DNA of 64,000 nucleotides. Origin: Seonamhaeicola aphaedonensis (GTDB taxonomy: Bacteria > Bacteroidota > Bacteroidia > Flavobacteriales > Flavobacteriaceae). Positions 1,529-62,347 of this stretch are shown here, piece by piece. Within the stretch, counting starts at the first letter, position 1, and each line of letters begins with the position of its first letter. The notes beneath the pieces were generated by a model that was not told the DNA's origin, ran no database searches, and saw only the letters and a list, made by a program, of their open reading frames with translations. The translations under genes and the position numbers were made by a program. The stretch covers positions 36,915 through 100,914 of the forward strand of contig NZ_QRDX01000005.1 of assembly GCF_003386195.1 (NCBI RefSeq), in the 5' to 3' direction.

Positions 1529-1545
1529 CAGGATAAAACAGGATA
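1529..1545 (+). promoter_or_regulatory. Direct-repeat operator, site A (perfect copy)
   Basis: CAGGATA at 1529-1535 and again at 1539-1545, exactly one helical turn (10 bp) apart. It ends 55 nt before the ATG at 1601. A TACTTTC element at 1566-1572, resembling the Bacteroidota -7 box, lies 20 nt downstream, which would put the repeat near the -33 region. The same arrangement recurs before the genes at 4564, 18955, 61072 and 62411. Function as an activator site is inferred from this recurrence. Confidence 0.6.
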
Positions 1546-1600
1546 GATGTAAAATCAATTTTTGGTACTTTCAAATTCCAATAATCTCATAATATAAAAA

Positions 1601-3514
1601 ATGCAAAGACGCAACTTTATACAATTATCAACTCTTGCAGGCGTAGGGCTTTCATTACCTATATCAGGTATTTTAAACGCTTGTGAAAACCATATAGAGC
1701 ACTCAATAGAATTTAAAAATTTAACGTCCAGTCTTTTAAAAGATTGGTGTGATGGGATGTTAAAACAGCAAATTGTAAATCCATCTAATTTAGAAGAACA
1801 CGGCGCTTTAGAGTGTCCTTCTTGTTCACACATACATGGCCGTTGTATGGATGCGGTGTATCCTTTTTTATATATGGCAGACAAAACAGGAGACGAAAAA
1901 TATGTAGAAGGTGCAAAATTGGTAATGCTTTGGGCTGAAAACAATGTGTCTCAAGAGGATGGTAGCTGGACCGTAATTACCAACCCTAAATCTTGGAAAG
2001 GTATTACGGTTTTTGGAGCGATTGCCTTGGCTGAAGCATTGCACTATCACGGTCATGTTTTAGATCAAGAAACTAGGTTAGCGTGGATGAGTCGCCTTGA
2101 AAAAGCAGGGCAGTATATCCATGATACCTTTACCATCGATTTTACCAATATCAATTATCCAGGTACGGCAGTTTATGGGTTAGATTTAATAGGAGATGTT
2201 GTAAATAGAGATGATTTTAAAGCCAAGAGTAAGACATTGGCATTAGAAGTAAAAGCCTATTTTACACCTAATGAAGGGTTGTTGTTTGGTGAATGTAAAA
2301 AGAGTTCCAGTAAACTAAGTGAAAAAGGATTGCATGGTGTAGATTTAGGGTATAATGTAGAGGAAACCTTAAACAGTTTAGTAATGTATGCGCTAAAAGA
2401 AAAAGATGAAGATTTATTGCAAATTCTAACCAAATCTTTGAATAGCCATTTAGAGTTTATGATGCCCGATGGTGGATGGGACAATAGTTGGGGTAACCGC
2501 ATGTACAAATGGACGTATTGGGGTAGTAGAACTTGTGACGGTAGCCAACCCGCATTCGGAATGATGGCACACATCAACCCAGCTTTTGGTACAGCAGCGG
2601 TTAAAAATACAGAGCTTTTAAAACAATGTACATCAGATGGTTTAATTCATGGCGGACCGCATTATGTGTCGGCAGGTATTTTACCCTGTATTCACCATAC
2701 CTTCACACATACAAAACCTTTAACAGCATTATTGGATCACTGGGAGCATTTGCCAGAAATAAATGCAAACACAGAATTACCAAGAGCTACCGCAGATGGG
2801 GTAAAACACTTTAAAGATTTAGATGTCTTTTTATTTGCCAGAGGCGATTGGAGAGGAACAGTAAGTGCTTATGATGCAGAGTACCATTACAAAGAAGATT
2901 TTCGTCAGGCGTCTGGTGGAGCCTTAGGTGTATTGTATCACAATAAAGTGGGCATGCTTTGTGCTGCCAGTATGGCAAAATATGAAATGGTTGAAAAAAA
3001 TAATCAACAAGAACAACCAGGAAAAGATATTTGTTTAACACCAAGGATAGAAACTTTTGTAGATGAGGTTTGGTACACCAATTTATACGATTTACCAGCT
3101 ACAGTTACTTCTAAAGATGAAAATGACACTATTGAATTGGTTGCAGATGTAAAATTGAAAAATGTAGCTAGAGAAGAAGTAAAAGAAACAGCTTCTAAAT
3201 TCGATATTAGATATAAGTGTGATTTAAATCAAACGGTAATTTCAGTAAAAACAGACCAGAATATTACTTCGCCAACTGCTTTTGTCTTACCTATTGTTTC
3301 GCCAAACAATGAGGTTATTTCTAGTGTAAGCGATACGGAAGTTACCATTCAAAAACCAGAGGGGTTAGTTACCATCAAGGCAAATTCACCAATCAATATG
3401 AAAGCACTTGAAGGTAAAAGAACATTTAATATGGTGCCAGGTGTAGAGGCTCTACCATTTGAAATCTTTTTTGAAGATAATAAGGCCTTGGTAATATCCA
3501 TTACTGTTAGTTAA
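1601..3514 (+). CDS. Tat-exported lipoprotein, probable alpha/alpha-toroid carbohydrate enzyme
   Basis: The 637-residue product starts with a twin-arginine signal (RRNFIQ, residues 3-8) joined to a lipobox (GILNAC, Cys28), so it should be a periplasm- or surface-anchored lipoprotein exported folded. Residues 40 to ~400 are helical with repeated Trp/Tyr/Gly-rich turns (PDGGWDNSWGNR, TYWGSRTCDGSQP), as in (alpha/alpha)n-toroid lyases and glycosidases. The last ~200 residues look beta-rich, resembling the lyase C-terminal beta-sandwich. A cysteine/histidine cluster at residues 72-82 (CPSCSHIHGRC) is striking and may bind a metal. I do not recognise the family: a polysaccharide lyase or a glucuronidase-like hydrolase are both possible. 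It is preceded by the perfect copy of the direct-repeat operator and its 3' end overlaps the convergent AraC gene by 4 nt, so it belongs to the rhamnose-glycan regulon by context. Confidence 0.75.
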   Translation: MQRRNFIQLSTLAGVGLSLPISGILNACENHIEHSIEFKNLTSSLLKDWCDGMLKQQIVNPSNLEEHGALECPSCSHIHGRCMDAVYPFLYMADKTGDEKYVEGAKLVMLWAENNVSQEDGSWTVITNPKSWKGITVFGAIALAEALHYHGHVLDQETRLAWMSRLEKAGQYIHDTFTIDFTNINYPGTAVYGLDLIGDVVNRDDFKAKSKTLALEVKAYFTPNEGLLFGECKKSSSKLSEKGLHGVDLGYNVEETLNSLVMYALKEKDEDLLQILTKSLNSHLEFMMPDGGWDNSWGNRMYKWTYWGSRTCDGSQPAFGMMAHINPAFGTAAVKNTELLKQCTSDGLIHGGPHYVSAGILPCIHHTFTHTKPLTALLDHWEHLPEINANTELPRATADGVKHFKDLDVFLFARGDWRGTVSAYDAEYHYKEDFRQASGGALGVLYHNKVGMLCAASMAKYEMVEKNNQQEQPGKDICLTPRIETFVDEVWYTNLYDLPATVTSKDENDTIELVADVKLKNVAREEVKETASKFDIRYKCDLNQTVISVKTDQNITSPTAFVLPIVSPNNEVISSVSDTEVTIQKPEGLVTIKANSPINMKALEGKRTFNMVPGVEALPFEIFFEDNKALVISITVS

Positions 3515-4386
3515 TTGGATAAATTTCTAAATATCCCAGGAGCTAAACCTGTTTTTCGTTTAAATAAACGGTTAAAATAAACATCTGATTCAAACCCCAA
3601 TTCAAAAGCAATTTCTTTTTGAGATTTATTGGTGTTTAACAGTAATTCCTTAGACTTTTCAATTTTTAGAAGCAAATGGTACTGTAATGGCGAAATACCT
3701 GTTTGCTTTTTAAAATCAATCCTAAATTTGGAGTAACTCACACCTAATTCTTGTGCTACTTTTTTCAAATTTAAAGTTGAATAAATATTTTTGTACATGA
3801 TGCTTTTGGCTTTTGCTACTAGCGAGTTTAAACTTTCAATATTACTGCCACCACTTTTAATATTATATAAATCAGCCATAAGCTGTAGGCAAATACCCGA
3901 TGCTGTGCGCTGAAAACCATAAGGTTCTTCATCAAATAATTTAAAGAGCGAATTAAAATGTTGTAATATAGAAGGTTTGTTACACTTTGATATTACAGGT
4001 TCATTTGTACTGAAAAACCCATTTGATAGGAATTGAGAAGCAATCTTACCTGAAAATCCTACCCATCGTTCAGTCCATCCGGTGCTTTTTTTTGGTTTAT
4101 AACGGTGCCAGATACCAGGAAATAATAAAAAAGCATCACCATCGGATACGTTTATTTTTCCCGTAGCCTTGCTTTCAAAAATACCTTCGCCTTTAGTAAT
4201 TAGAACTATATGAAATTCGTTTAATATACGCCCCTTATCCCATGTAAATATATATTGGTCTGGGTGGTCTTTAGAAGGATATTCTGTGTTTTTTTCAATA
4301 ACATTTCGTCCTAAATTATTAATATAAAAACCCCATGAAGTTTCTATTCTACTGGTTATTAAGTATTTTCTGTATTTATTTATCAT
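3511..4386 (-). CDS. AraC-family transcriptional regulator
   Basis: The 291-residue protein has an N-terminal cupin-like effector domain (about residues 30-160, with the GEGIF and DGDAFLLFPGIWHRY strand motifs). The C-terminal AraC-type DNA-binding domain (about 195-290) contains two helix-turn-helix units: LKKVAQELGVSYSKFRIDFK, then QKEIAFELGFESDVYFNRLF. The closing KRKTGLAPGIFR matches the usual AraC signature region. Regulators of this architecture sense sugars in catabolic loci. It is transcribed divergently from the GH78 operon starting at 4564 and convergently with the gene ending at 3514, overlapping it by 4 nt. As the only regulator in the window it is the natural candidate for the sugar sensor acting at the CAGGATA repeats, but the sequence does not prove this. 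An L-rhamnose or rhamnosyl-oligosaccharide ligand is inferred. Confidence 0.92.
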   Translation of the reverse strand: MINKYRKYLITSRIETSWGFYINNLGRNVIEKNTEYPSKDHPDQYIFTWDKGRILNEFHIVLITKGEGIFESKATGKINVSDGDAFLLFPGIWHRYKPKKSTGWTERWVGFSGKIASQFLSNGFFSTNEPVISKCNKPSILQHFNSLFKLFDEEPYGFQRTASGICLQLMADLYNIKSGGSNIESLNSLVAKAKSIMYKNIYSTLNLKKVAQELGVSYSKFRIDFKKQTGISPLQYHLLLKIEKSKELLLNTNKSQKEIAFELGFESDVYFNRLFKRKTGLAPGIFRNLSN

Positions 4387-4486
4387 ATCATTTTGTGCAA
4401 CTAATATATCAATTTGTTAATTGTTAATTTTAAGAAATTAAGAGAAATTTACAAACAAGTTATAAATGAAGTGGATTGAAATCTTG

Positions 4487-4503
4487 CGGGAGGGGACAGG
4501 ATA
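4487..4503 (+). promoter_or_regulatory. Direct-repeat operator, site B
   Basis: The invariant box CAGGATA is at 4497-4503 with a weaker copy (CGGGAGG) 10 bp upstream. It lies in the divergent intergenic region between the AraC gene and the GH78 operon, 60 nt before the ATG at 4564. A TACTTTC element lies at 4533-4539. This position favours 4564 over an earlier in-frame ATG at 4513, which would overlap the promoter. Confidence 0.5.
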
Positions 4504-4563
4504 GTAATCTATGTGTTTTTCGTTTTATTTATTACTTTCAAACTAAACCAAATAGTATATCGC

Positions 4564-7500
4564 ATGAAACTAAAGAACGCTGGCAGCATTTTTCCAAGTT
4601 CTATATTATTGTTAATAATTATAAGTGGACTAATATGTATCTCTTGTGGGCAATCGCTTTTAAGAGTTAAAGATTTAAAATGTGAGTACCGTACAAATCC
4701 TCTCGGTATCGATAATACAATGCCAAGATTTGGTTGGAAATTAATTGATGAAAACAACGAGAGAGGACAAAAACAAACCGCTTATCAAATATTAGTGTCT
4801 AGTAATATTGAAGGATTAAAAAATGATAAAGGTGATGTTTGGGACTCGGGTAAATTGAAAGCGGATAAATCGGTCAACATTGAGTTTTTAGGAAAACCTT
4901 TAGAATCTGGAAAAGAGTATTTCTGGAAAGTGAAAGTTTGGGATGCTAGTGGTTTAGAATCCAAATGGAGTGAGGTTGCTAATTTTTCAATGGGCTTATT
5001 GAACCCAAAAGATTGGAAAGGCGAATGGATATACAAAAAAGACCAAAATAAAAAAGACCATAATTGGTATAGAAAGAACGTGTCTTTAGATAAAACACCA
5101 CAATCTGCCTTTATTCATGTAGCATCTTTTGGGTATCACGAATTGTACGTGAATGGGAAGAAAGTTGGTGATGAGGTGATGAATCCTGTCAACTCATTCC
5201 TTAAAAAGCGCTTACCCTATCTCACTTATGATATTAAGGATTATTTAAACGAAGGTGATAATGTTATTGCTATTTGGCATGCAGCAGGTTGGGCAAGATG
5301 GGGACGTGTAAAAGATTATTTCGACCCGCCTTTTGTATTTAAGGCTCAGGCTCATATTGATTTAGGTGAAGACAGGATTGTCATAGTTTCAGATGCCTCA
5401 TGGAAATGCAAAAAAAGCTATAGTGCTTACCATAGTTCTTGGGATATATTGGATTTTGGTGGTGAAATTATTGATGAACGTTTACGTGAAGACGATTGGA
5501 ATACTGCTGAATACGATGATGGTAATTGGGCAAATGCAGTTGTTTTTGATGAAACAGAAATGCAAGAAGTTGAAGTAACCAATATCAATTTGGGACCTAA
5601 AGGGGCTATACGAGCACCAAGTACAGATGCTAACCCACCAATAAGTAAAATTACAGCGACCTTAAGTGCACAAATGGTAGAACCTCAAGTGAAATTTAAA
5701 GAAGTGAAACCTATTGGTGTTACAAAAACTGAAGATGGCCATTATGTGATTGATATGGGCGAAAATTACACCGGTTACTTCGAAATGAACCTGTATAACG
5801 GTAAAGCGGGCGATACCGTTACTTTTGAAATTGCCGACCATAAAGAGGTGTCCACGTCTTGGGAACAGCGCAGTAAATATATTTATGATGAAACCGGCAA
5901 AGGCCATTTTACCAATCGATTCAATTTGGCAGGAGGCCGCTTTGTAACCATTTATGGTATTAATTATAAACCCGAATTAAAAGATATTAAAGGCTATGTT
6001 ATTACGAATAATCGTAAACAAATAAGTCAGTTTGAAAGCTCAAGCGAGTTGTTAAATAAGATATATCAAGTGAATCTGAATACCTACATCGCTAATACAA
6101 TAGATGGTATTTTGGTAGACTGTCCGCATCGCGAACGCCGTGGTTGGGGCGAAGTTACCGTGGCCGCCATTTACGGAGATGCACTACCTAATTTTGAAAG
6201 TGGCGCCTACATGATGCAATATGCACAATTTATGCAAGATGCACAGGCTGAAGATGGTAAAATGCGAGCTGTAATTAATGGCGACGATTTTGAGTTTTTA
6301 ATGTGGATGGCAAATAGCCCAATTACTATTTGGGAAACTTACCGTATGTTGGGAGATAAACAGTTGTTAGAAAACCACTATCCGACTTTAAAAAAATGGA
6401 TGCATTGGTTGTATGAACATTCTAATTATGAAACTCAAGATGCTTTAAGAATTGGTGAACGAGGTACTCTAGAATTCCCAGGATTGGGCGATTGGTGTAC
6501 CCCTAGAGGTAATTTTTGGACGTCGAGTAATTCACCAGAGTCGGAGCATTTTAATAATTGTGTGTATGCTTTTATGCTAGAATCGGCTTTAGAAATCGCA
6601 AAAACCCTCAATAAAAAGGACGATGTAAAACTATTTTCAGACCGTTTGAAAGTACAACGAAAAGCAACACATCAAAAGATATATGATACCCAAACTGGGA
6701 AATATGGCGAAGGGCATCAGGTAAATCAAGCTTTTGCTTTGCTTTCTGGAGTTACTCCCAAGTCAGAACAACAAAAGGTATACGATAATTTAGTAGACCA
6801 AGTTTTATATAAATTCCCATATTACGACACCGGTAGTTCGGGACAAGCCCTCTATACGCGCTATTTTATAGAGCATGGTGAACGCATGGATTTAATTTAT
6901 GAACTGTTAAAAGATAAACGTCACCCGAGTTACGGATACTTTTTAGAACAAGGTAAAACCGTCTGGCCAGAACGTTGGTCGGCAATCGGGAACAGTCAAA
7001 TTCACACCTGTTACACGGGTATTGGCGGTTATTTCATAAAAGGTTTTGCGGGAATTAGGCCAGACCCAGAGCAACCAGGAATGCAACAATTTATCGTGAA
7101 ACCAGCTCCGGTAGGCGATTTAACCTATGTAAATACCAGTTACCAATCTCCTTATGGAGATGTCGTTTCAAATTGGAAAATTACTGATGATACTGCAACG
7201 TTTCATATTGAAATCCCTGTAAATACTTCAGCTAAAATTTATATCCCATCAAATGAAATCGACTTAGTTATTGAAGGTGGGATGAGTATTGAAAAATCAG
7301 AAGGTATTAAATATATCGGTTCAGAGAAAAGCGATGCGGTCGGTAATTATATCATTTTTGAAGTGGCTTCTGGTGTGTATGATTTTGAAGTATCAAAATT
7401 ACCAAAAGTAACATACCCAGACCCAATAAATAAACCTGATAACTTGGCATTAATAGGGCGTATAAACGCTTCTACAATGACTATCGATTCTGAAAAACTA

Positions 7501-7830
7501 CCTCTTTATGAAGCATTTAGAGCAAATGATGAAAAGTTAGAAACACACTGGAAAGCGAATTCTAAAACTAACGAATGGTTGGAAGTGGAATGGTTTAAAC
7601 CACAGACCTTTAACAAAATTGTGATTCATGAAAAAGGGAATAATATTTCAAACTATAAAATTCAATATTTTGAAGATGAAACTTGGGTAGATTTGGTGCA
7701 AGATACCTCTTGCGGGGTTAATAAAATGCATCAATTTCAAAGTGTAACGGCTTCAAAATGTAGAATACTAATAGAAGCTTCGAGAGCTATACCTGAAATT
7801 TCAGAAATCGAAATAAATTATTCAAACTAA
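4564..7830 (+). CDS. GH78 alpha-L-rhamnosidase with C-terminal discoidin-like domain
   Basis: With the ATG at 4564 the product is 1088 residues and opens with a lipoprotein-type signal (Cys28). An in-frame ATG at 4513 would put 17 extra residues before the signal peptide and overlap the promoter. N-terminal beta-sandwich modules (VKDLKCEYRTNPLGID, then YFWKVKVWDA) precede a GH78 (alpha/alpha)6 catalytic barrel. The signature DCPHRERRGW begins at Asp519 with the candidate general acid Glu524; the candidate general base is Glu803 in VWPERW. Odd feature: after RRGW the sequence runs GEVTVAA, whereas GH78 enzymes normally have an Asp 12 residues after the first Asp. A ~110-residue F5/8-type (CBM32-like) domain ends the protein. 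It is closely similar in order and sequence to the product of 10400-13648. The enzyme should release terminal alpha-L-rhamnose in the periplasm or at the surface. Confidence 0.9.
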   Translation: MKLKNAGSIFPSSILLLIIISGLICISCGQSLLRVKDLKCEYRTNPLGIDNTMPRFGWKLIDENNERGQKQTAYQILVSSNIEGLKNDKGDVWDSGKLKADKSVNIEFLGKPLESGKEYFWKVKVWDASGLESKWSEVANFSMGLLNPKDWKGEWIYKKDQNKKDHNWYRKNVSLDKTPQSAFIHVASFGYHELYVNGKKVGDEVMNPVNSFLKKRLPYLTYDIKDYLNEGDNVIAIWHAAGWARWGRVKDYFDPPFVFKAQAHIDLGEDRIVIVSDASWKCKKSYSAYHSSWDILDFGGEIIDERLREDDWNTAEYDDGNWANAVVFDETEMQEVEVTNINLGPKGAIRAPSTDANPPISKITATLSAQMVEPQVKFKEVKPIGVTKTEDGHYVIDMGENYTGYFEMNLYNGKAGDTVTFEIADHKEVSTSWEQRSKYIYDETGKGHFTNRFNLAGGRFVTIYGINYKPELKDIKGYVITNNRKQISQFESSSELLNKIYQVNLNTYIANTIDGILVDCPHRERRGWGEVTVAAIYGDALPNFESGAYMMQYAQFMQDAQAEDGKMRAVINGDDFEFLMWMANSPITIWETYRMLGDKQLLENHYPTLKKWMHWLYEHSNYETQDALRIGERGTLEFPGLGDWCTPRGNFWTSSNSPESEHFNNCVYAFMLESALEIAKTLNKKDDVKLFSDRLKVQRKATHQKIYDTQTGKYGEGHQVNQAFALLSGVTPKSEQQKVYDNLVDQVLYKFPYYDTGSSGQALYTRYFIEHGERMDLIYELLKDKRHPSYGYFLEQGKTVWPERWSAIGNSQIHTCYTGIGGYFIKGFAGIRPDPEQPGMQQFIVKPAPVGDLTYVNTSYQSPYGDVVSNWKITDDTATFHIEIPVNTSAKIYIPSNEIDLVIEGGMSIEKSEGIKYIGSEKSDAVGNYIIFEVASGVYDFEVSKLPKVTYPDPINKPDNLALIGRINASTMTIDSEKLPLYEAFRANDEKLETHWKANSKTNEWLEVEWFKPQTFNKIVIHEKGNNISNYKIQYFEDETWVDLVQDTSCGVNKMHQFQSVTASKCRILIEASRAIPEISEIEINYSN

Positions 7831-7847
7831 ATATTTTCAAAACTGAA

Positions 7848-10382
7848 ATGAATAATAAAATGTATTTAAATAAAAACAAAATTAAGGCCTTTCTTTTTGG
7901 AACAATAATTTGTCTTTCAAGTAGTTGTTTGCAATCCAAGAAAAAGGATTCCGAGACGGCATTACATGTAGATGTATTCACTTCCATAAACTGGGACAGC
8001 GCCAAATGGATTGGTTATACCAAAGACCATCGTCCCGAAAAATGGGCAGCGAGAGATTTGGTACGTAACCAACCACCCATGAATATTAATACTTGGGAGC
8101 CCACGGAAGAGGACCTAAAAGTAACCCGACGTAAAACCCATCCTTCTGTGCTTCTAAGAAAAGCGTTTTCAATAACTAAGGAAGTAGCATCAGCAGAAGT
8201 AGCCATTTGTGGATTAGGACTTTATGAACTGTATTTAAATGGTGAAAAAGTAGGCGACCGTGTGCTCGACCCAGCACAAACCTCCTATGATAAACGTGCT
8301 TTTTATGTACGTCATGATGTAACCAAAGCGCTTCGTAAAAACAACAGTTTGGGAGTAATGTTGGGTAATGGGTTTTACGGACAAAATATGGCGTTTGCCC
8401 CTGGGCTTTCTTATGGAAAACCTCGAGCAACAATGGTGTTAAATATCCTCTATAAAGATGGGACAAAAGAACAAATTGTGACTGATGAAAGTTGGAAAGC
8501 ACACAGCAGTCCTATTCTTTTCGATAATATTTATCATGGAGAAACTTACGATGCACGTGAAGCGATAACTGGTTGGAGTAGTTATAAGTTTGATGATACC
8601 TCTTGGGAACCTGTTGAGATAATGAAAGCACCAACACAAAATTTATTGGAGCAGGATTTAGAACCCATCCGAAAGATTAGAACAGTTACACCTATAGCGG
8701 TTTGGAAAGCAGAACGGGGATGGATATTGGATATGGGACAAAATATGACGGGTTGGTTAGCCATTTCCGTAAAAGAAAAGGAAGGTACTGTTGTAAAAAT
8801 GCGTTTTGCCGAACACCTCATGCCTGATAAACAAAACATAGACCCTGCATCTACTGGTATTCACGTTACTGGAAATACCCAAACCGATATATATATCTGT
8901 AAGGGTGATGGAACTGAAACTTGGGAACCCCGTTTTACCTATCATGCCTTTCGCTATGTTCAAATTGAAGGACTCAGTGAAAAGCCAGATTTAAGTCAAT
9001 TTACAGGATGGTTAGTGCGCACCGATGCAGAGAGAATAGGGACTTTTAAATCTTCGGACACACTTATAAATAAGTTTTACGATGTGTCCATGTGGACTAT
9101 CGAAGATAATATTCAAGGGTTGTTGAGTGATTGTCCGCACCGCGAGCGCTGTGCGTGGATGGGCGATGCTTATGTAGTAGCCGAAGCAGCTAGTTTTAAT
9201 TTCGATTTAAAACGCTTGTGGCAAAAAACATCTGCCGATATGGAAACGGTTTTAGGGGTGTCTAAAGCACATTTTAAAGACCCTTTTCCTTATGATGCGC
9301 GCACACCTGCAAATATTTCCGTTGGAAAGCGTCTCTGTTTACAAGCACGACCAGACTGGGGGGCTGCCACCATTATGGTACCATGGTTTTCGTATGTGTA
9401 TTATGGAGATAAGTCAATTATTCAAGGCGCTTGGGAGATGATGGAAGGTTGGATGGCTTACCTAGATGAAAAAGTACAAGAAGGCGGTATTATAAACGGT
9501 GGATTTGGCGATTGGTGTCCTCCAGGAGGTAATCCAGAAATGGATACAGCACCCGCATTAACGTCAACTGCACTGTATTATCAGTCTTTAGTATCTATGG
9601 AAAAAATGGCATTGGTTTTAGAAAAAAGAGAAGTCGCTAATAATTATGCTGAAACAGCGAAATTGGTCAAGACGGCTTTTAATAAAACCTTTTTTAAAGA
9701 AAAAACGAAGTCCTATGGTTCTCAAACAGGTAATGCCTTTGCGTTGTATTCTGGTTTAGTTCCTAAAGGCTTAGAGCAATTGGTTGCTGATGATTTAGCA
9801 AACCTTATCATGAAAGATAAAAATGGGCATTACAGCACGGGTATTTTTGGGCATCGTCCGTTATACACCGTATTAAATGATTACGGACATGATGCGGTGA
9901 CAAAGCACTTATGGAGTATTACCGATTATCCTAGCTTAGGATTTATGACCGAGGAGCACGATTTAACCGTATGGCCAGAAGGCGTTAGCAATTGGGATAA
10001 GAACGAGCGGTATTATCGACATTCATTTAACCACCCCATGCAAAGTGGATTTGCTGCTTCGTTTCATGAAAGTTTAGGAGGCATAAGACCTAATGAGGAT
10101 TATCCCGGATTTAAAAAGTTCTATCTAAAACCAACATTTCTTGAAGGTGTAGATTGGGTTGAGGTAACACACAAATCCCCGCAAGGCACGATAGAAAGTT
10201 CGTGGAAAAAGGAAGGTGAAGAAATTATTTGGACCATTTCAGTACCAGAACAATCAGAAGCTATTGTGCAGTTACCATATTATCAAAATGAACAAATCAA
10301 ATTAAATAATACATCAGTTAGAGCTAATATGTTTAATGTATCATCAGGTAAACACATTATACGAATATCAAATTCAAAATAA
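7848..10382 (+). CDS. GH78 alpha-L-rhamnosidase (lipoprotein)
   Basis: 844 residues with a lipoprotein signal (LSSSC, Cys27). A beta-sandwich domain with ATWIGY/KWIGY-type Trp motif and the lectin-like GLYELYLNGEKVGD strand comes first, then the (alpha/alpha)6 barrel. The full GH78 acidic signature is present: DCPHRERCAWMGD with Asp428, Glu433 and Asp440, and the candidate general base Glu711 in TVWPEG. A small C-terminal beta domain closes the protein (SSWKKEGEEIIWTISVP). It lacks the discoidin tail of its two neighbours. The gene starts 17 nt after the preceding stop and ends 17 nt before the next start, so it is the middle gene of an operon. Its different architecture from the flanking paralogues suggests a different linkage or position specificity in the same glycan. 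Confidence 0.92.
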   Translation: MNNKMYLNKNKIKAFLFGTIICLSSSCLQSKKKDSETALHVDVFTSINWDSAKWIGYTKDHRPEKWAARDLVRNQPPMNINTWEPTEEDLKVTRRKTHPSVLLRKAFSITKEVASAEVAICGLGLYELYLNGEKVGDRVLDPAQTSYDKRAFYVRHDVTKALRKNNSLGVMLGNGFYGQNMAFAPGLSYGKPRATMVLNILYKDGTKEQIVTDESWKAHSSPILFDNIYHGETYDAREAITGWSSYKFDDTSWEPVEIMKAPTQNLLEQDLEPIRKIRTVTPIAVWKAERGWILDMGQNMTGWLAISVKEKEGTVVKMRFAEHLMPDKQNIDPASTGIHVTGNTQTDIYICKGDGTETWEPRFTYHAFRYVQIEGLSEKPDLSQFTGWLVRTDAERIGTFKSSDTLINKFYDVSMWTIEDNIQGLLSDCPHRERCAWMGDAYVVAEAASFNFDLKRLWQKTSADMETVLGVSKAHFKDPFPYDARTPANISVGKRLCLQARPDWGAATIMVPWFSYVYYGDKSIIQGAWEMMEGWMAYLDEKVQEGGIINGGFGDWCPPGGNPEMDTAPALTSTALYYQSLVSMEKMALVLEKREVANNYAETAKLVKTAFNKTFFKEKTKSYGSQTGNAFALYSGLVPKGLEQLVADDLANLIMKDKNGHYSTGIFGHRPLYTVLNDYGHDAVTKHLWSITDYPSLGFMTEEHDLTVWPEGVSNWDKNERYYRHSFNHPMQSGFAASFHESLGGIRPNEDYPGFKKFYLKPTFLEGVDWVEVTHKSPQGTIESSWKKEGEEIIWTISVPEQSEAIVQLPYYQNEQIKLNNTSVRANMFNVSSGKHIIRISNSK

Positions 10383-10399
10383 AAAATCATAGTGTTAAA

Positions 10400-17968: not shown

Positions 17969-18026
17969 TTTTCACACTATTCCAAAAAAATTGGTTTGGT
18001 TCAAATAGAAAGAAGAAAATAAAACA

Positions 18027-18745
18027 ATGAATCCTACACATCGAATCTTTTTAATATGTAGCATTTGTTTTAGTTTTGGTCGTACAAGGTGGAGTGTCAG
18101 AAAAATATTCTTTTCAATCTTCAAGCAGAAAACTTTAAGACTATTATCAATGGCAAAGATGTTGGACTTTATTTCTTAAAAAATGGCGCAATCAACACCT
18201 GTCAACCTTAGCAACCATGCGTTTTTCAATTTAGGAGGAAAGCCCTTTGGAACTATACACAATCATATTCTTAAAATAAATGCCGATAGATTTACCTCTG
18301 TTGACGAAATCCTAATTCCATTTGGAGAGAATGCTTTTGTAGAAGGTACTCCATTCGATTTTAGAAAAGGAAATATAATTGGTAAAGATTTGCCATTACA
18401 AGAAAGCAACGAACAGCTTAAAAAAGGAAAGGATACGGCCATAATTTTGTGTTGAATAAAAGTAATGAAGGAATAATGTTGGCCGCCGTTGTGGTAGAAC
18501 CAAAAAACGGAATAAAGATGTAAATTTTCACAGAAGAACCAGGTCTACAATCCTATGGTGGAAATTTCTTTAACGGCTCCGACACAGGTAAATATGGTAA
18601 TAGGCATAACTATCGCGAAGCATTTGCGCTGGAAACTCAACATTTCCCCGATGCTCCAAATCAGGAATTATTTCCATCAATTATTCTGAATCCAGGTGAA
18701 ATTTACCAAAGTAAATCGGTTTTTAAGTTCTCTATCGAATACTAG
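18027..18745 (+). pseudogene. Broken secreted aldose 1-epimerase (GalM-like)
   Basis: Several pieces of a mutarotase are readable in order but not in one frame. A start at 18027 gives a signal-peptide-like MNPTHRIFLICSICFSFG. In another frame comes FKTIINGKDVGLYFLKNGA, the family's N-terminal strands. This jumps directly to TPVNLSNHAFFNLGG (open frame 18183-18455), a motif normally more than 100 residues later, so there is an internal deletion. A frameshift near 18435 is needed to continue into GYGHNFVLNK. A nonsense TAA follows KNGIKM just before IFTEEPGLQSYGGNF, and the end reads ALETQHFPDAPNQELFPSIILNPGE. Intact enzymes interconvert alpha and beta anomers of aldoses. With a deletion, at least two frame changes and a stop, no activity is expected. 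The short open frame 18183-18455 should not be called a gene. Confidence 0.85.
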
Positions 18746-18795
18746 CTGTGTATGGGATATTTTTAAATTGAATATAATTAGCATGATTAATTTCT

Positions 18796-18852
18796 AATAA
18801 AATTAAGAAATTGGGAAGTTTATTGAAATTACGGGTAGTTAGGGTTTGTTAA
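18796..18852 (+). pseudogene. Remnant of the 3' end of a second isomerase gene
   Basis: Reading from 18796 gives 18 codons, NKIKKLGSLLKLRVVRVC, and a TAA at 18850-18852. The intact isomerase ends NKIEMLGSILKLRVVRIC and a stop at the equivalent place (15012-15068). Upstream of 18796 the frame is closed by a TGA at 18784, so only the tail survives. It sits 102 nt before the GH78 gene at 18955. The simplest reading is that an isomerase gene once preceded this GH78 gene and was lost or displaced by a recombination that brought in the 15206-18745 block. Confidence 0.75.
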
Positions 18853-18867
18853 AATTTCATTCTCGTC

Positions 18868-18884
18868 CATGACATTACAGGATA
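18868..18884 (+). promoter_or_regulatory. Direct-repeat operator, site C
   Basis: CAGGATA at 18878-18884 with a related box (CATGACA) exactly 10 bp upstream. It ends 70 nt before the ATG at 18955. A TAAACTTTG sequence (from 18893) downstream resembles the Bacteroidota -7 element. It starts 15 nt after the isomerase remnant. The rest of the gap between 17969 and 18954 outside the pseudogene pieces shows nothing else I can support. Confidence 0.5.
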
Positions 18885-18954
18885 ACTATAATGTAAACTT
18901 TGGTTAATTTTCCGTTTTTAAATCAAAGAAAGTATTTAACACAAACTATCAGTA

Positions 18955-21336
18955 ATGTCAACATCACATAAAACAATTCAATTTCTGATAAACACAATTA
19001 TAGTCTTTTTTTTAACCATTAGTTCTTCAGCTTTTGCTAATAATCCAAATTGGGACAATGCCCAATGGATTTGGCAACAAGAAGACAGCCCTTCTAATAC
19101 TTGGATGAGTTTTAGAAAGACTGTAACACTAGACGAAATTCCTAAAAGCGTTGAAGCTTACATCTCAGTAGATAGTAAATTTTGGCTTTGGATCAATGGA
19201 GACATGGTAATTTTTGAAGGCGGTTTATCTCGTGGGCCAAGTCAAGCTGGTGAGTGGAATCGTAAAGAAAAAATAACACCAGCCAACTCTTGGTATGAAA
19301 CGTTAAACATTCAACCTTATTTAAAAAAAGGAGAAAATACCATTGCTGTTTTGGTGTGGTATTGGGGACGTGAAACCCACAAAGGAACCCATATCGACAG
19401 TGGAAAAGGAGGTTTATTATTTTCTTCAGAAATAGGAAATCAACACTTGGTTTCTGATAGCACTTGGAAGGTTCTACAACATCCAGGTTATGATAATACC
19501 ATTGAACCTGCTAGCAGAATGCTAGTTCAATATAGCGTAAAGTTTAATGCTCAAAAGGGATTAAATGATTGGACAGACCAAGCTTGGTACAGCCAAAGTT
19601 TTAACGATGCTAATTGGGCAGACGCTTCAGAAAAAGGAAAATTAGGAGTAGCTCCATGGTATAATGTTGAAAAAAATATAGTGCCACATTTAATCAATCA
19701 TGGATTGCAGGATTATGCAAATCATGAAGATTTAAAAATCCCTTTTGTTAGTGATGGTACAACTATAAAAGCGAGGTTACCATTCAATAAGCAGGTAACG
19801 CCTTATCTGGAAATTGAAGCCAAAGCAGGAGATAGTATTTTTATCACCACCGATAATAATAGAAATAGTATCCATGCTACATACATTGCCAAAGACGGAT
19901 TACAAAAGTTTGAAAGCTACTCATGGTTTAATGGCCATGAAGTGCAATATACCATTCCTGCAGGCGTAAAAGTAAAGGCGTTAAAATACCGATGGATGAG
20001 TGTAGGTGAAATGGCGGGTAATTTTCAAATAGACGACCCATTTTACAACCGCTTGTGGGATATGGGTAACAATACACTTTTTGTATGTGCTCGCGATAAC
20101 TTTATGGATTGCCCAGACCGTGAACGTGCTCTTTGGATTGGTGATGTAGCAGACCAAACAGGCTATTTGTTTTATGCTATGGATGATGCGGGGCGTAAAC
20201 TTTTAAAAAAGGCCATTTTGCAAACAGTGTATTTTAGTGAGAATGATGTCATTGGCGCTTTAGGCCCATTGCGAGTTCGGGAGTTGGTTTGCCAAAGTTT
20301 ACAGTTTATTGCTCAAGTGGTTTGGCCATATTACTTGAATACAGGTGATAAAGAAACCCTTGAAATTGCTTATCCGTATTTGTACAGGTATTTGGATTTA
20401 TTTCCAATGCGAGACAATGGATTTCCAGAATATAGAAAAAGTAAAAGTCCAGATACTTGGAACTGGTTGGATTGGGGCGTAAAAGGTACTATAGACGAGC
20501 AACCGATACAAATGGCTTTCTACTATTTAGCTTTAAGAAAAGCTAAAAAAATGGCAGAAGTTTTGGGTAAAGAAGATCATATACAATGGTATGATGAGCG
20601 CATGACTTCCATGAAATCGGCTTATGAAAAAGAATTTTGGAAAGATGGTTTTTACAGTAGTAATGCAGCAAAGTTTAAAGACGATCGTGCCAATGCTATA
20701 GCTATTGTATCAGGTATTGCAAACCCAGAATATTACAATCAAATTGTTGACAATGTGTTAATTCCGAACCGGTTTTCTAGCCCGCATTTCGAATGGATGG
20801 CAGAAGAAGCCATGTTTATAGCAGGCAGACCAAAAGCCTCTTTGCAGCGTATGAAAGAAATGTATCAAAGTCAAGTTGATAAAAAGAATATGACGACGCT
20901 TTACGAGAAGTTTCCTGATGGAGGAAGTTACAATCATGCTTGGAATGGTTCCAATACCATATTATCCAAATACGTTGCAGGTGTAAAACCAATTAAAGTG
21001 GCTTGGAGTGAATTTCAAATTATGCCAACAATGGTACATTTTAAGAAGATAGAAAAAACAATCCCAACCGTTAAGGGTAATGTTGTTATTGGGATTAATG
21101 AATCAGATAGCTCTTATCAATTAAACTTAGAATCACCAAATAATACTGATGCAATTATTGGTATTCCTACATCAGAAAAACAAGTTGCTTCAGTTGAAAT
21201 AAACGGAAAAATAGTTTGGAAAAAAGGGAAAGCAAAAAAGAGGATTGCAGGTGTAAGTTATGTTGGTGAAGATGATCAATTTTTGAAATTTAAATTATCT
21301 TCAGGAGAATGGAGTGTAAATGCTGAGTACAAATAA
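18955..21336 (+). CDS. GH78-family alpha-L-rhamnosidase (secreted)
   Basis: 793 residues with a signal peptide ending near SSAFAN. The first domain has the rhamnosidase N-terminal pattern (NAQWIWQQED, FWLWINGDMVIFEGG), and the toroid follows. The catalytic signature is DCPDRERALWIGD with Asp385, Glu390 and Asp397, with the candidate base Glu651 in TTLYEKF. A C-terminal beta domain includes VEINGKIVWKKGK. It is shorter than classical five-domain GH78 enzymes. The gene opens the transcription unit after operator site C and is followed after 20 nt by a close paralogue (21357), so the pair is a tandem duplication. The SPNWxNAxWIWQ start and DCPDRER motif set this pair apart from the other five GH78 proteins in the window, suggesting another subfamily and substrate position. 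Confidence 0.88.
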   Translation: MSTSHKTIQFLINTIIVFFLTISSSAFANNPNWDNAQWIWQQEDSPSNTWMSFRKTVTLDEIPKSVEAYISVDSKFWLWINGDMVIFEGGLSRGPSQAGEWNRKEKITPANSWYETLNIQPYLKKGENTIAVLVWYWGRETHKGTHIDSGKGGLLFSSEIGNQHLVSDSTWKVLQHPGYDNTIEPASRMLVQYSVKFNAQKGLNDWTDQAWYSQSFNDANWADASEKGKLGVAPWYNVEKNIVPHLINHGLQDYANHEDLKIPFVSDGTTIKARLPFNKQVTPYLEIEAKAGDSIFITTDNNRNSIHATYIAKDGLQKFESYSWFNGHEVQYTIPAGVKVKALKYRWMSVGEMAGNFQIDDPFYNRLWDMGNNTLFVCARDNFMDCPDRERALWIGDVADQTGYLFYAMDDAGRKLLKKAILQTVYFSENDVIGALGPLRVRELVCQSLQFIAQVVWPYYLNTGDKETLEIAYPYLYRYLDLFPMRDNGFPEYRKSKSPDTWNWLDWGVKGTIDEQPIQMAFYYLALRKAKKMAEVLGKEDHIQWYDERMTSMKSAYEKEFWKDGFYSSNAAKFKDDRANAIAIVSGIANPEYYNQIVDNVLIPNRFSSPHFEWMAEEAMFIAGRPKASLQRMKEMYQSQVDKKNMTTLYEKFPDGGSYNHAWNGSNTILSKYVAGVKPIKVAWSEFQIMPTMVHFKKIEKTIPTVKGNVVIGINESDSSYQLNLESPNNTDAIIGIPTSEKQVASVEINGKIVWKKGKAKKRIAGVSYVGEDDQFLKFKLSSGEWSVNAEYK

Positions 21337-52533: not shown

Positions 52534-58556
<6,023 letters not shown>

Positions 58557-58559
58557 CAA

Positions 58560-60836
58560 ATGAGGTTTTTATTTAATTACATAACACGTTTATTACTAAT
58601 TGTTTTAATGGTAGCTCCAACTTTAATAACTGCACAAAAATTAATCTATAAAGATGCTTCTTTACCCATAGAAGATAGGGTAAATGATCTACTTAATAGA
58701 ATGACAGTAGAAGAGAAAGTTGGACAAATGCTCATGTTTGGCGCCCAAAGAGTAGCAAGAAAAGGTAAAGATGGCTCGTTAGTCATTACCGATTGGGGTA
58801 AACCATACTTTACGAATGGTTTAGGTGGTTTAAAGTTTCCTTTTCAGAAAGAAACTCCAGAAGAGTCAGCAAGACTAAATAACGAACTTCAAAAAAAGAT
58901 TATAGCGTCCAACCGATTTGGAATACCAGCATTATTTGTTGGAGAAGCCTATAATGGTGTAGATGCCAAAGGATGTACAAGTTTTGGTCGTCCACTTAAT
59001 TTGGCTGCTTCTTGGAATGTAAACTTAACGCACGATGTATGGAGTGCTATTGGTCGCGAATCTCGTTTACGTGGTTGGCACATGGTGCATTCTCCTGTTG
59101 GAGATATTGCGCGCGATCCTCGTTTTGGAAGAATGAGCGAAGGATATGGAGAAGATACTTTTTTAACCACAGAAATGTTGGTGGCTGCTGTAACTGGGGT
59201 ACAAGGAGATTACAATGGAACAGGATTTAATACGTCTCATATAGGTGCAGTGGTTAAACATTTTGCTGGTTATAGCCAAGTTGTTGGAGGTCGTAATTTT
59301 GCAGCTGTAGAGGTGTCTCCTCGTGTTTTACTTGATGAGTTGTTACCACCTTTTAAAACGGCTGTTCAACGCGGTCATGCTCTTGCTATTATGCCGTCGC
59401 ACGGTGATATTAACGGTGTGGCTAGTCATGGGAACCCTTGGTTATTAACAGATTTGTTACGAAAACAATGGGGTTTTAACGGTTATGTCGTCTCAGATGC
59501 TTATGATGTTGGACGCTTAAATTTTTTAATGAAAGTTGCAGAAAATATTGAAGAAGCAGTGAAACTTGGTTTAAAAGCAGGTGTAGATTTAGACTTATAT
59601 AGTGAAGATGTTTACGAGCTGCTTCCAGAAATGGTAAAGAAAGACCCTAGCTTGTTACCCTATATTGATAGAGCAGCTGGTGATATGCTACGTACTAAAT
59701 TTATTATGGGCCTTTTTGATAATCCTTACATTGACGTTGAGGAAACAAAAAAGGGAGTACGTTCTAAAGAGAACCTATCATTGGCAAAAGAAATGGATGA
59801 AGAATCCATGATTTTACTTAAAAATGAAAACCAGATATTACCTTTAAATAAAAAAGAATCACGTAAAATAGCATTAATTGGACCTTTACTTGGCGAAGAC
59901 ACGAAAGAAGCATTTGAAAGTGTAGCTGGAGATAAAGTGTCTTTTGTTGCTGAAAAAGGATATGAGCTGACAAACCGAAACTCAAAGCATCCTGAACTAA
60001 CACCCAGAAACGATGCGGCTTTAGACAAAATGGTAGAACTTGCTAAAGATGCAGATGTATCAATTCTTTTTGTTGGAGGAGATCGCTTTACAGCTCAAGA
60101 GGCTACTTTTTTCAAGTGGGTTATTGGAGATCGGGCTACTATAGAACCAGTTGGTGTTCAAGATGAGTTAATTCAAAGAGTTAAAGCATTGGGTAAACCG
60201 GTAATAGTGGTGTTGAAACACCGTAGAACATTATCATTCAATGTAATCAATGACAATGCAGATGCTGTCTTGGATTGTTGGGAAATGACCGAGTTTGGAG
60301 ACGAACTTGTAGCAAAAGTGCTCTTTGGTGAATTTTCGCCTTCAGGGAAATTACCGGTTACTGTGCCACGTACAATTGGTCAAATTCCTTATCACTATAG
60401 CATGAAGGAGATTAGTTTCTTTAAAGATTATCTATTTTTAGAATCTGGTCCATTATATCCGTTTGGCTATGGTTTAAGTTATTCTAAGTTTAGCTATTCT
60501 CAACCTAAATTAACAAGTGATATCTTAGAACGTGATGGAACAATACAAGTAACTGTAGATGTTATGAATACAGGAAAGGTAACCGCTAAAGAAGTGGTAC
60601 AAATGTATATTAAAGATATGTTTGGTTCTGTACTAAGACCTGATAAGGAACTGAAAGGTTTTGAAAAGATTGAATTAAAACCTGGAGAAACAAAAACAGT
60701 TCAATTTACAATTACTCCAGATATGTTAGTTTTTACAGGAGTAGAAATGAAACCGATTATAGAGGCAGGAGATTATGAAGTAATGTTAGGTACATCGTCT
60801 CAAGAATATCAGAAGACCTCATTTCGTCTTAAATGA
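58560..60836 (+). CDS. GH3 beta-glycosidase (xylosidase/glucosidase type)
   Basis: 758 residues with a signal peptide (PTLITAQ). GH3 barrel (about 40-390) with LLNRMTVEEKVGQM, the KHFAGYSQ substrate loop and nucleophile Asp313 in GYVVSDAYDVG. The alpha/beta sandwich domain follows (ESMILLKNENQILPL, FVGGDRFTAQEA, VIVVLKHRRTLS), then the C-terminal FN3 domain (PFGYGLSYSKFSYSQ). GH3 enzymes remove single beta-linked glucose, xylose or other sugars. For an ulvan-like substrate a beta-xylosidase function would fit, but specificity is not visible. The lack of the usual HG(S/T)P-like loop after VVL, replaced by KHRRTLS, is slightly odd. It ends the long cluster, with 235 nt before rhaT. Confidence 0.9.
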   Translation: MRFLFNYITRLLLIVLMVAPTLITAQKLIYKDASLPIEDRVNDLLNRMTVEEKVGQMLMFGAQRVARKGKDGSLVITDWGKPYFTNGLGGLKFPFQKETPEESARLNNELQKKIIASNRFGIPALFVGEAYNGVDAKGCTSFGRPLNLAASWNVNLTHDVWSAIGRESRLRGWHMVHSPVGDIARDPRFGRMSEGYGEDTFLTTEMLVAAVTGVQGDYNGTGFNTSHIGAVVKHFAGYSQVVGGRNFAAVEVSPRVLLDELLPPFKTAVQRGHALAIMPSHGDINGVASHGNPWLLTDLLRKQWGFNGYVVSDAYDVGRLNFLMKVAENIEEAVKLGLKAGVDLDLYSEDVYELLPEMVKKDPSLLPYIDRAAGDMLRTKFIMGLFDNPYIDVEETKKGVRSKENLSLAKEMDEESMILLKNENQILPLNKKESRKIALIGPLLGEDTKEAFESVAGDKVSFVAEKGYELTNRNSKHPELTPRNDAALDKMVELAKDADVSILFVGGDRFTAQEATFFKWVIGDRATIEPVGVQDELIQRVKALGKPVIVVLKHRRTLSFNVINDNADAVLDCWEMTEFGDELVAKVLFGEFSPSGKLPVTVPRTIGQIPYHYSMKEISFFKDYLFLESGPLYPFGYGLSYSKFSYSQPKLTSDILERDGTIQVTVDVMNTGKVTAKEVVQMYIKDMFGSVLRPDKELKGFEKIELKPGETKTVQFTITPDMLVFTGVEMKPIIEAGDYEVMLGTSSQEYQKTSFRLK

Positions 60837-60893
60837 TTTTAGATAAATGACGATTACTAGAAATTCAAAAAACTTTTATCATGGATTAAAAAT

Positions 60894-60916
60894 TATTTTA
60901 CCTCAACAGTAAAATA
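60894..60916 (+). repeat. Weak hairpin after the GH3 gene
   Basis: TATTTTAC (60894-60901) and GTAAAATA (60909-60916) pair perfectly around a 7-nt loop, 57 nt after the GH3 stop. No T-run follows, so termination is uncertain. Confidence 0.3.
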
Positions 60917-60996
60917 TTAAAACAAATATGTATGTTGCTAGATTTGAAGGTAATAAGGAATGGTAGGCTCAGGATTATATATGTTTATTTAATTCT

Positions 60997-61013
60997 CATG
61001 ATAGTGCAGGATA
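60997..61013 (+). promoter_or_regulatory. Direct-repeat operator, site D
   Basis: CAGGATA at 61007-61013 with CATGATA (one mismatch) exactly 10 bp upstream; another related box CAGGATT is at 60970-60976. It ends 58 nt before the rhaT start. This is the second-best copy of the motif and links rhamnose uptake to the hydrolase genes. Confidence 0.6.
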
Positions 61014-61071
61014 GTTTAAAAGACATCAAGATTTATTTTTAAGCCTTACAAATAAACTTAAATAAGAAAAT

Positions 61072-62124
61072 ATGCAAGCATTAATAGGTGTTATATTTCA
61101 TTCCTTAGGAGGAATTGCTTCTGGTAGTTTTTACATGCCGTTTAACAAAGTAAAAGGTTGGGCCTGGGAAAGCTATTGGATAGTTGGTGGTTTAATGTCT
61201 TGGTTAATAGTGCCTCCACTAGCGGCTTATTTAACAGTTCCAGGGTTTTTAGATATTATAGCAGCAGGTTCTAGTACCATTGTATGGTTTACTTTTTTAA
61301 TGGGGCTGCTCTGGGGTGTAGGAGGTTTGTCCTATGGACTAGGAGTTCGCTATTTAGGAATGTCTTTAGGTAATTCAGTAGTTCTTGGTTTTTGTGCTGC
61401 CTTTGGAGCTATAGTGCCCTCTATATATTACAACTTTAGTCCTATGGAAGGGAAAGTGTCTTTTACAGATATGCTTGGTTCTTCAGGGGGACAGATAGTA
61501 TTATTAGGTGTTTTGGTTTGTCTTCTAGGTATTGGATTATGTGGAAGAGCCGGTATTTTAAAAGAAAAAGAGCTTTCAGACGAAGAAAAAAAGAAATCTG
61601 TTTCAGAGTTTAATTTAGTTAAAGGATTAGTAGTGGCCATTCTTTCGGGTATTTTAAGTTCCTTTTTTAGTTTTGGTATTGAATCGGGAAAGCCCCTTGC
61701 AGATGCTGCAGTAGAAGCCGGTTATGATCATCTATTTGCTAACAATGTAACATTTGTAGTTATTTTATGGGGAGGTTTAATAACCAACTTAGTTTGGACA
61801 ACCATTTTGAGTATTAAAAATAAATCTTATAAAGATTTTACAAATAAGAGTACTCCAATTCGCAACAATATAATATTTTCTGCAATGGCAGGAACCATCT
61901 GGTTTTTACAATTCTTTTTCTACGGAATGGGTGAAAGCAAACTAGGTAGCGGTGCTAGTTCATGGATTTTACATATGTCTACCATTATTTTAACAGCTAA
62001 TTTTTGGGGTATTTACCGTAAAGAGTGGAAAGGTGTTGCTAAAAAGACTAAGATAACCATAACAGCAGGTATTGTGGTGATTTTATTGTCTGTGGTTTTG
62101 GTTGGAATTGGGAATTCAATCTAG
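61072..62124 (+). CDS. rhaT: L-rhamnose/proton symporter
   Basis: 350 residues, almost entirely hydrophobic with about ten membrane helices and no cleavable signal. The N-terminal ALIGVIFHSLGGIASGSFYMPF, the GLLWGVGGLSYGLGVRYLGMSLGNSV segment, and LSSFFSFGIESGKPLADAA are characteristic of the RhaT family, part of the DMT superfamily. It imports L-rhamnose across the inner membrane with protons. It stands alone between operator site D and a strong terminator, so it is a single-gene unit apparently co-controlled with the rhamnosidase operons. Its presence is the clearest independent sign that L-rhamnose is a product of this region. Confidence 0.95.
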   Translation: MQALIGVIFHSLGGIASGSFYMPFNKVKGWAWESYWIVGGLMSWLIVPPLAAYLTVPGFLDIIAAGSSTIVWFTFLMGLLWGVGGLSYGLGVRYLGMSLGNSVVLGFCAAFGAIVPSIYYNFSPMEGKVSFTDMLGSSGGQIVLLGVLVCLLGIGLCGRAGILKEKELSDEEKKKSVSEFNLVKGLVVAILSGILSSFFSFGIESGKPLADAAVEAGYDHLFANNVTFVVILWGGLITNLVWTTILSIKNKSYKDFTNKSTPIRNNIIFSAMAGTIWFLQFFFYGMGESKLGSGASSWILHMSTIILTANFWGIYRKEWKGVAKKTKITITAGIVVILLSVVLVGIGNSI

Positions 62125-62135
62125 ATAATGAATTT

Positions 62136-62153
62136 AACCTGAAGCTTCAGGTT
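62136..62153. repeat. 18-bp perfect palindrome after rhaT
   Basis: AACCTGAAGCTTCAGGTT at 62136-62153 reads the same on both strands. It lies 11 nt after the rhaT stop and 9 nt before the terminator stem. It could be an operator or an additional hairpin of the terminator region. Confidence 0.45.
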
Positions 62154-62162
62154 AGTTATTAG

Positions 62163-62213
62163 CATGATACAAAATAGATTATGAATGATTTATTTTGTAT
62201 CATGTTTTTTTTT
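62163..62213 (+). terminator. Strong Rho-independent terminator of rhaT
   Basis: A perfect 14-bp stem (62163-62176 with 62191-62204), 14-nt loop and a run of nine T at 62205-62213. The stem is AT-rich but long. It isolates rhaT from the following sulfatase gene. Confidence 0.9.
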
Positions 62214-62330
62214 AAGAGGCTTTAATTGGGTAATAACAATTTTATCTTGTGACACCTATTGAGAACATTTTCTGCAAGCGATTCTCCTTGTCTTTTTTTT
62301 GTTTAGTTCTTTAAAATTACTGTATTATAC

Positions 62331-62347
62331 AGGCCAGTACAGGATAA
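62331..62347 (+). promoter_or_regulatory. Direct-repeat operator, site E
   Basis: CAGGATA at 62341-62347 with CAGGCCA (two mismatches) exactly 10 bp upstream. It ends 63 nt before the ATG at 62411. A TACTTTTC element follows at 62368-62375, 20 nt downstream, the same spacing as at site A. Confidence 0.5.

Follow-up and report, generated by a model that had tools for sequence, protein, structure and literature searches.

A direct repeat made up of the heptamer CAGGATA and a more variable partner 10 bp upstream was found ahead of five genes in a 64,000-nt stretch of the genome of Seonamhaeicola aphaedonensis (contig NZ_QRDX01000005.1, here C5; C5:36915-100914 in a genome assembled as 41 contigs, 3.5 Mb in all). 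This stretch is called the window below, and positions without a contig prefix refer to it. The element is almost certainly a genuine operator of an L-rhamnose regulon, and in this genome it is found at the head of more than twenty genes or operons predicted to serve the use of rhamnose-rich, probably seaweed, sugars. Taken as a whole, the explanation that we consider probable is an L-rhamnose-regulon operator of the Flavobacteriaceae bound by a GntR-family protein, which would act by class II activation. What was read directly from the sequence is the repeat with its 10-bp phase, the constant distance to the -7 element, the placement over the -33 region, the position ahead of rhamnose genes, and the conservation at the rhamnose operon.

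The window contains 15 exact copies of the heptamer where 6.5 would be expected, and 0 of 100 shuffled sequences held as many. An earlier note on this DNA, made from its letters alone, had listed five boxes ahead of start codons; those at 1539, 4497, 18878, and 61007 were present as listed, whereas the fifth begins at 62340 and not at 62341. The upstream partners lay exactly 10 bp earlier with the sequences given there (CAGGATA, CGGGAGG, CATGACA, CATGATA, and CAGGCCA). All five sites, their -7 elements, and the genes under them are on the plus strand. Site 1 (CAGGATA-AAA-CAGGATA, 1529..1545; matrix score, see below, 29.2) lies 62 nt 5' of a lipoprotein-like gene (1601..3514) whose product matched nothing in Pfam or NCBIfam at E <= 0.001, and a similar site, CAGGACA-AAA-CAGGATA, stands ahead of the ortholog of this gene in another genome (G044, locus L107). 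Site 2 (CGGGAGG-GGA-CAGGATA, 4487..4503; score 16.5), the weakest of the window, precedes a GH78 alpha-L-rhamnosidase gene (4564..7830; PF17389, PF08531), with 67 nt to its ATG at 4564 and 16 nt to a GTG at 4513. Site 3 (CATGACA-TTA-CAGGATA, 18868..18884; score 28.8) lies 77 nt 5' of a GH78-type rhamnosidase gene (18955..21336; PF17389), with which it was kept together in genomes G132 and G145. Site 4 (CATGATA-GTG-CAGGATA, 60997..61013; score 32.2) lies 65 nt 5' of rhaT, the gene of the L-rhamnose/proton symporter (61072..62124; NF010024, 509.6 bits with a cut-off of 468), and a degenerate site was seen ahead of a rhaT-like gene in genome G134 (L106). Site 5 (CAGGCCA-GTA-CAGGATA, 62330..62346; score 29.3) lies 71 nt 5' of a sulfatase gene (62411..63871; PF00884). 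These distances agree roughly with the 55-70 nt given earlier but are slightly longer.

The -7-like element that had been recognized at two sites was present there, but also at two more: it begins exactly 20 nt past the box at site 1 (TACTTTCA, 1566..1573), site 3 (TAATTTTC, 18905..18912), site 4 (TATTTTTA, 61034..61041), and site 5 (TACTTTTC, 62367..62374). At site 2, the corresponding positions (4524-4531, TTTATTTA) held no good -7 element. The heptamer had also been said to occur by chance inside genes, and the other nine of the 15 window copies did lie within genes, lacking both a start codon at promoter distance and a TAnnTT at 20 nt. Elsewhere on the contig, at C5:313153-313603 (minus strand), in-gene CAGGATA belongs to a repeated coding sequence, where it recurs three times at distances of 150 and 300 nt, and has no relation to the operator. 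The 986-nt gap ahead of the second GH78 operon (17969-18954) contains, shortly 5' of site 3, two-frame fragments of a decayed gene that by eye resembles aldose 1-epimerase.

Sites for alignment were chosen by the downstream box and not by the -7 element. Among 22 intergenic downstream boxes on C5 and part of C8, one (C5:233283) had no partner and no gene within 3 kb and was dropped; the 21 that were kept include two with poor upstream boxes and matrix scores below 16 (C5:126779 and C5:102997). The alignment consisted of an upstream box CAKGAYA, a spacer N-T-A/G, the box CAGGATA (invariant by selection), 20 weakly conserved nucleotides, and TAnnTT. The spacer, earlier called N3, turned out to be conserved, with G in 16/21, T in 17/21, and A or G in 21/21 sites at its three positions. 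TAnnTT[TG] stood at +20 in 14 of these 21 box-selected sites and at another offset once, and the Bacteroidetes sigma-A -7 consensus TAnnTTTG was complete at many rhaEW promoters. Because the -7 box is placed at -12 to -5 of the promoter in the available part of PMC9723704, the repeat covers -49 to -33 with its centre at -41, which agrees with the earlier proposal that it overlies the -33 region as the site of an activator would. No further conserved box was present in the 25 nt 5' of the upstream box in the 21 sites, whose period was 10 bp; neither geometry of AraC-type operators, a direct repeat of 21-bp period or inverted 17-bp half sites, was seen. The element took the form CRGKAYA-GTA-CAGGATA-N20-TAnnTTTG at the catabolic operon and CAKGAYA-NTR-CAGGATA at glycan genes. 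At two loci of other genomes (L168 8226-8246 and L171 2828-2848), arrays of at least three tandem CAGGAYA words in 10-bp phase were observed 5' of SusC genes.

In the whole genome, CAGGATA-N20-TANNTTT matched 13 times and the reversed pattern 0 times; 12 matches were on C5 between 6 and 194 kb, and 10 lay outside the window and served as a held-out test. When at most one mismatch was allowed, the 17-mer CANGANANNNCAGGATA gave 34 matches and its control 6. A matrix was then made from 46 training sites in other genomes, 24 of them rhaEW promoters and the others from polysaccharide utilization loci (PULs), and used at a threshold score of 16 on both strands of about 0.44 of the 3.5 Mb, the remainder being searched with patterns only; as the training sites had been collected with similarly shaped patterns, the scan tests recurrence and position and not shape. 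It returned 28 sites scoring at least 16 (23 on C5, 4 on C8, and 1 on C1), including all five of the window, against 0 in the reversed sequence. All 27 with gene models were intergenic. The earlier proposal of one regulon of rhamnose-glycan genes stood, but with 28 sites and not five units.

The first genes under these sites encode a sulfatase-GH78 fusion (two tandem sites), sulfatases, GH106, several GH78 enzymes, GH2, GH5, a BNR_4 protein, which we take to be possibly an ulvan lyase, a PF06439 protein, SusC, an extracytoplasmic function (ECF) sigma factor followed by FecR, and, on C8, a GntR paralog; several others had no Pfam match or were without annotation. The catabolic and uptake targets are rhaT, rhaM, and rhaEW-rhaI-rhaB, where RhaT, RhaM, and RhaEW passed curated cut-offs and the names rhaI and rhaB are best matches below the cut-off. 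From the target genes, the substrate is most likely a rhamnose-rich sulfated glycan, and most likely ulvan. A 296-aa protein (C5:102040-102930) has a site of its own that scores 15.9. The operator-bearing ECF gene (C5:122930-123499, minus strand), which is followed by FecR and SusC/SusD-like genes, suggests that the rhamnose regulator may act on an ECF switch in a cascade. Just 5' of the window, an assembly gap (C5:36818-36914) is flanked on both sides by sequence encoding one and the same peptide stretch, so that the gene under the site at C5:35215 is broken by the assembly, its 3' end being the first window open reading frame (ORF), 186-734.

Conservation was followed in a family sample of 149 genomes. 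The strict 17-mer CAKGAYANTRCAGGATA was present in 13/149 genomes and 0 times in the control; a wider pattern matched 66/149 genomes, but its reversed control also matched many, and it was not used for counts. Genes for rhaEW were found in 33 of the 149 genomes, and 30 rhaEW loci were examined. At 26 of these, the box lay exactly 20 nt from TAnnTT, in 25 cases with the upstream box; the other four comprised a CAGGATT variant, a locus truncated by a contig end, and two loci without a site. The comparison with related promoters that the earlier note had proposed was made in named loci, the best 80 of 568 confirmed GntR relatives with up to 5 kb on either side of the GntR gene, of which 75 contain a rhaEW or rhaT promoter and five do not. 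The box with its -7 element was present in 72 of the 75, with 0.08 expected from shuffles that keep base composition only, and the upstream box was recognizable in 71. In the three misses (L140, L171, and L201), the ORF start is probably misplaced and the site is visible. Site-bearing loci came from Polaribacter, Algibacter, Winogradskyella, Zobellia, Arenibacter, and Flavobacterium, among others; those of Flavobacterium read AAGGAYA-GTA-CAGGAYA, and there the -7 element follows after 21 nt.

The element is most likely read by the product of a GntR-family gene at C5:192498-193547, outside the window and divergent from rhaEW-rhaI-rhaB. This gene was found by asking what accompanies the element in genomes that lack the AraC-family regulator of the window (3511..4386, discussed below). 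A GntR of at least 46% identity occurred in 12 of the 13 motif genomes but in only 17 of the 136 others (Fisher p=4e-9); the strict match of genome G104, which sits inside an ORF and where the GntR is absent, was counted as a miss, and that of G110, flagged inside a 152-aa ORF of the opposite strand, was kept in the counts. The association of rhaEW with motif genomes had p=2e-8. In G050, which has no AraC ortholog, sites were present on both sides of the GntR gene. In G115 and G061, where rhaEW lies on a different contig or at a distance of 62 kb, promoter-spaced boxes still adjoined the GntR gene, some with imperfect upstream boxes. Among 30 GntR loci of 4 kb each, 13 held 16 sites, compared with 0.17 in dinucleotide shuffles; of 23 AraC-paralog loci, two held one site each. 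A 64% GntR paralog on C1, which adjoins genes that by eye are GH78-like and rhaT-like, has the related word CAGAARCRACAGGATG 5' of two neighbouring genes, and this also favours the GntR protein.

The candidate protein has a GntR winged helix (PF00392, 41.3 bits, cut-off 27) and a LacI-like effector domain (Peripla_BP_3, PF13377, 28.6 bits, cut-off 26.5), a combination that we take to mark the AraR-type subgroup. Its closest named relative among the matches listed was from Seonamhaeicola sediminis (97%), and the AlphaFold model of the 97% relative (mean confidence, pLDDT, 86) had LacI (1efa, E 1e-13) as its best Foldseek match, whereas the similarity of 13 PDB sequence relatives (E <= 1e-5) was limited to the winged-helix part. 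Tandem duplicated GntR genes adjoin rhaEW in L139, L140, L141, L146, L153, and L154 (Hyunsoonleella, Flaviramulus, and Algibacter), where a split of sensing roles is possible.

Several observations weigh against the GntR protein as binder. All 29 genomes with a GntR of at least 46% identity also have rhaEW, so that co-occurrence by itself does not tell whether GntR binds the sites or simply belongs to the pathway. Among eight GntR loci without rhaEW within 10 kb, a site was present in three (L114, L131, and L132), some with poor upstream boxes; the rhaEW-linked GntRs of 42-46% identity in G037 and G108 had no rhaEW site and no phased repeat. This genome has several GntR paralogs, so that the pairing of paralog and site is ambiguous. 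The boxes beside the 64% paralog are spaced by 9 bp and not 10, and no clear -7 element stands at 20 nt from them. Moreover, GntR operators are usually inverted repeats according to the part of PMC5320631 available, and the present element, a direct repeat of 10-bp phase with a non-palindromic box, has no such form.

The other proteins that might bind the repeats fared worse. The AraC-family regulator encoded at 3511..4386 (minus strand; PF12833, PF02311) had been the binder suggested by the earlier note, and it is divergent from one target operon; moreover, five of the seven genomes with an AraC ortholog carry the strict motif (p=4e-5). However, an ortholog of at least 70% identity is present in only 5 of the 13 motif genomes and missing from eight, and none was labelled in the 80 named loci, that is, within 5 kb of the GntR gene. 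The orthologs have a conserved upstream element of their own in 7/7 cases (4387..4422 in the window, minus strand), which does not resemble CAGGATA, and CAGGATA lies within 160 nt in only 3/7. This upstream element had 10/16 self-matches at a 21-bp shift, the best among shifts 5-25, and matched 32/36 at 4387..4422 against 26/36 at its best position elsewhere in the scanned parts of C5 and C8. AraC-type and hybrid two-component system (HTCS) operators predicted in Bacteroides have a 21-bp period, as described in the accessible portions of PMC3870299 and PMC3878776. On the co-occurrence and the different upstream element we rejected this AraC protein, and its binding to the repeats is quite unlikely. 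Slightly less likely still is an HTCS with an AraC-type output domain (C5:17849-21907, C5:163608-167624, or C8:124175-128206). HTCS genes share clusters with the sites, and with four candidates scored per genome a relative of at least 40% identity to C5:17849-21907 was listed in 7 of the 13 motif genomes (p=2e-6). None was listed in the other six, including G132 with sites at the same genes, although with four candidates scored misses are possible; predicted HTCS boxes are about 21 bp apart in the available part of PMC3878776, as opposed to the 10-bp period here, and the element also heads the plain rhamnose operon in Flavobacterium. An HTCS was therefore rejected as sole binder within that search. 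As for a DeoR-family RhaR, the accessible part of PMC3870299 describes predicted motifs with imperfect direct repeats of 10-11 bp, a geometry that fits, and a DeoR-type domain was found in 10 of 15 genomes tested. However, HTH_DeoR had 0 matches in this genome, while 13/14 control genomes were positive, and the site-bearing genomes G115, G132, G145, and G070 had no DeoR-type domain. The absence of the family contradicts a DeoR binder in this genome, and we regard this option as next to negligible.

If the GntR protein is the binder, it could either activate or repress. In the mechanism that we propose, the candidate at C5:192498-193547 would bind the element, with L-rhamnose or a pathway intermediate setting the state of its sensor domain. 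Between -49 and -33, two subunits would occupy the same face of the helix in tandem, separated by a single helical turn; from this site, centred at -41, they would substitute for a -33 element and bring in the sigma-A polymerase, as in class II activation. In this way the glycan genes of the PUL cluster and the cytoplasmic catabolism of rhamnose would both be turned on by a single sensor. The main rival has the same GntR protein on the same operator as a repressor over the -33 region, with rhamnose or an intermediate as the signal for its release. Most GntR regulators are repressors, and AusR, the GntR regulator of alginate use in the marine flavobacterium Zobellia galactanivorans, is reportedly one as well, to judge by the title; the habit of the family and this analogy favour repression, as does the overlap of the site with the core promoter. 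Activation is favoured because the spacing to the -7 element is fixed at 20 nt, which a repressor would not need, and because the box sits where a -33 element would be expected, so that polymerase without help has no evident contact, although this is partly forced by the box itself. The Bacteroidetes sigma-A -33 element has a TTG consensus at a spacing of 17-23 nt. TTG was found at the -33 distance in 0 of 28 sites, with 4.6 expected from spacer composition; the evidence that this adds for activation is weak, because the box fills most of that stretch. On balance we lean towards the GntR protein acting as an activator, and repression seems the less likely alternative, though a serious one.

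The phase of the repeat recurred near more distant homologs, a further point in favour of the GntR protein as binder. In 20 regions upstream of GntR homologs with 37-46% identity (taken from the 69 matches at 46% or below that were listed from genome G020 downward), a 7-mer was repeated at phase 10 in 17/20, compared with 2.7 expected from shuffles that keep base composition only, while phases 8, 9, and 11-16 were found at 2-4 loci each. Fifteen of the 17 regions carry variants of CTACTAG and hence represent mainly one further group, and the remaining two (L282 and L294) look like chance; CTACTAG is nearly a palindrome in itself, so that the arrangement there could equally be direct or inverted. 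The sequence CTACTAGNNNCTACTAG occurred once each in 10 of the 149 genomes, in nine of them within about 41 nt of the start of a GntR gene, and once in the reversed control. In the present genome, CTACTAG-ACC-CTACTAG was observed at C1:84478-84494 (L278), in the interval that separates a GntR-family gene from a divergent transporter-like gene, with galK/galT-like genes alongside, and is probably the operator of a galactose-type GntR.

Several known systems share features with the proposed one. RhaR (BT3768) of Bacteroides thetaiotaomicron belongs to the same phylum and likewise governs L-rhamnose uptake and catabolism by positive control, but it is described in the accessible parts of PMC3870299 and PMC3878776 as an AraC-family protein with a predicted direct repeat of 21-bp period and a single target operon; here the candidate is a GntR protein, the period is 10 bp, and about 28 sites reach into glycan degradation. 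The DeoR-family RhaR matches in operator geometry and pathway (PMC3870299, in part) but differs in protein family, which is absent from this genome. That same portion of PMC3870299 describes rhamnose regulons under AraC, DeoR, and LacI regulators. The MocR group (GabR, PdxR, and TauR) combines the GntR winged helix with direct-repeat operators and activation, and its genes are often divergent from the activated gene, as outlined in the available sections of PMC5320631; it has an aminotransferase-like sensor and other repeat arrangements, in contrast to the LacI-like sensor and boxes one helical turn apart seen here. The likeness to AusR, likewise a GntR-family regulator of a flavobacterial algal PUL but for alginate and reportedly a repressor, covers the family and the type of PUL. 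A search of PMC articles without their supplements found no flavobacterial GntR regulator of rhamnose and no description of such a motif.

To our knowledge, little is known about the control of algal-polysaccharide PULs in marine flavobacteria, and in the phylum as a whole such control is usually ascribed to local HTCS, SusR-like, or ECF systems. A broader proposal, towards which we remain slightly more sceptical than convinced, is that flavobacteria may possess a class of GntR/LacI-hybrid sugar sensors, each recognizing a pair of 7-bp words spaced by one helical turn (CAGGATA in the case of rhamnose, and CTACTAG-like words in a second group, here beside galactose-type genes), in which the rhamnose sensor would be a class II activator that replaces the -33 element and would run a supercluster of about 28 sites together with catabolism in place of PUL-encoded HTCS or AraC proteins. 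One short operator makes the rhamnose regulon legible across the family from genome sequence alone, and through it the orphan gene 1601-3514 and, more weakly, the 296-aa protein are tied to the use of rhamnose glycans. The candidate regulator can be named and has close orthologs in Flavobacterium, among them the GntR of Flavobacterium johnsoniae strain CI04 (L208) at 71% identity, and the 10-bp phase near its distant homologs suggests a route to operator prediction for a family of sugar sensors.

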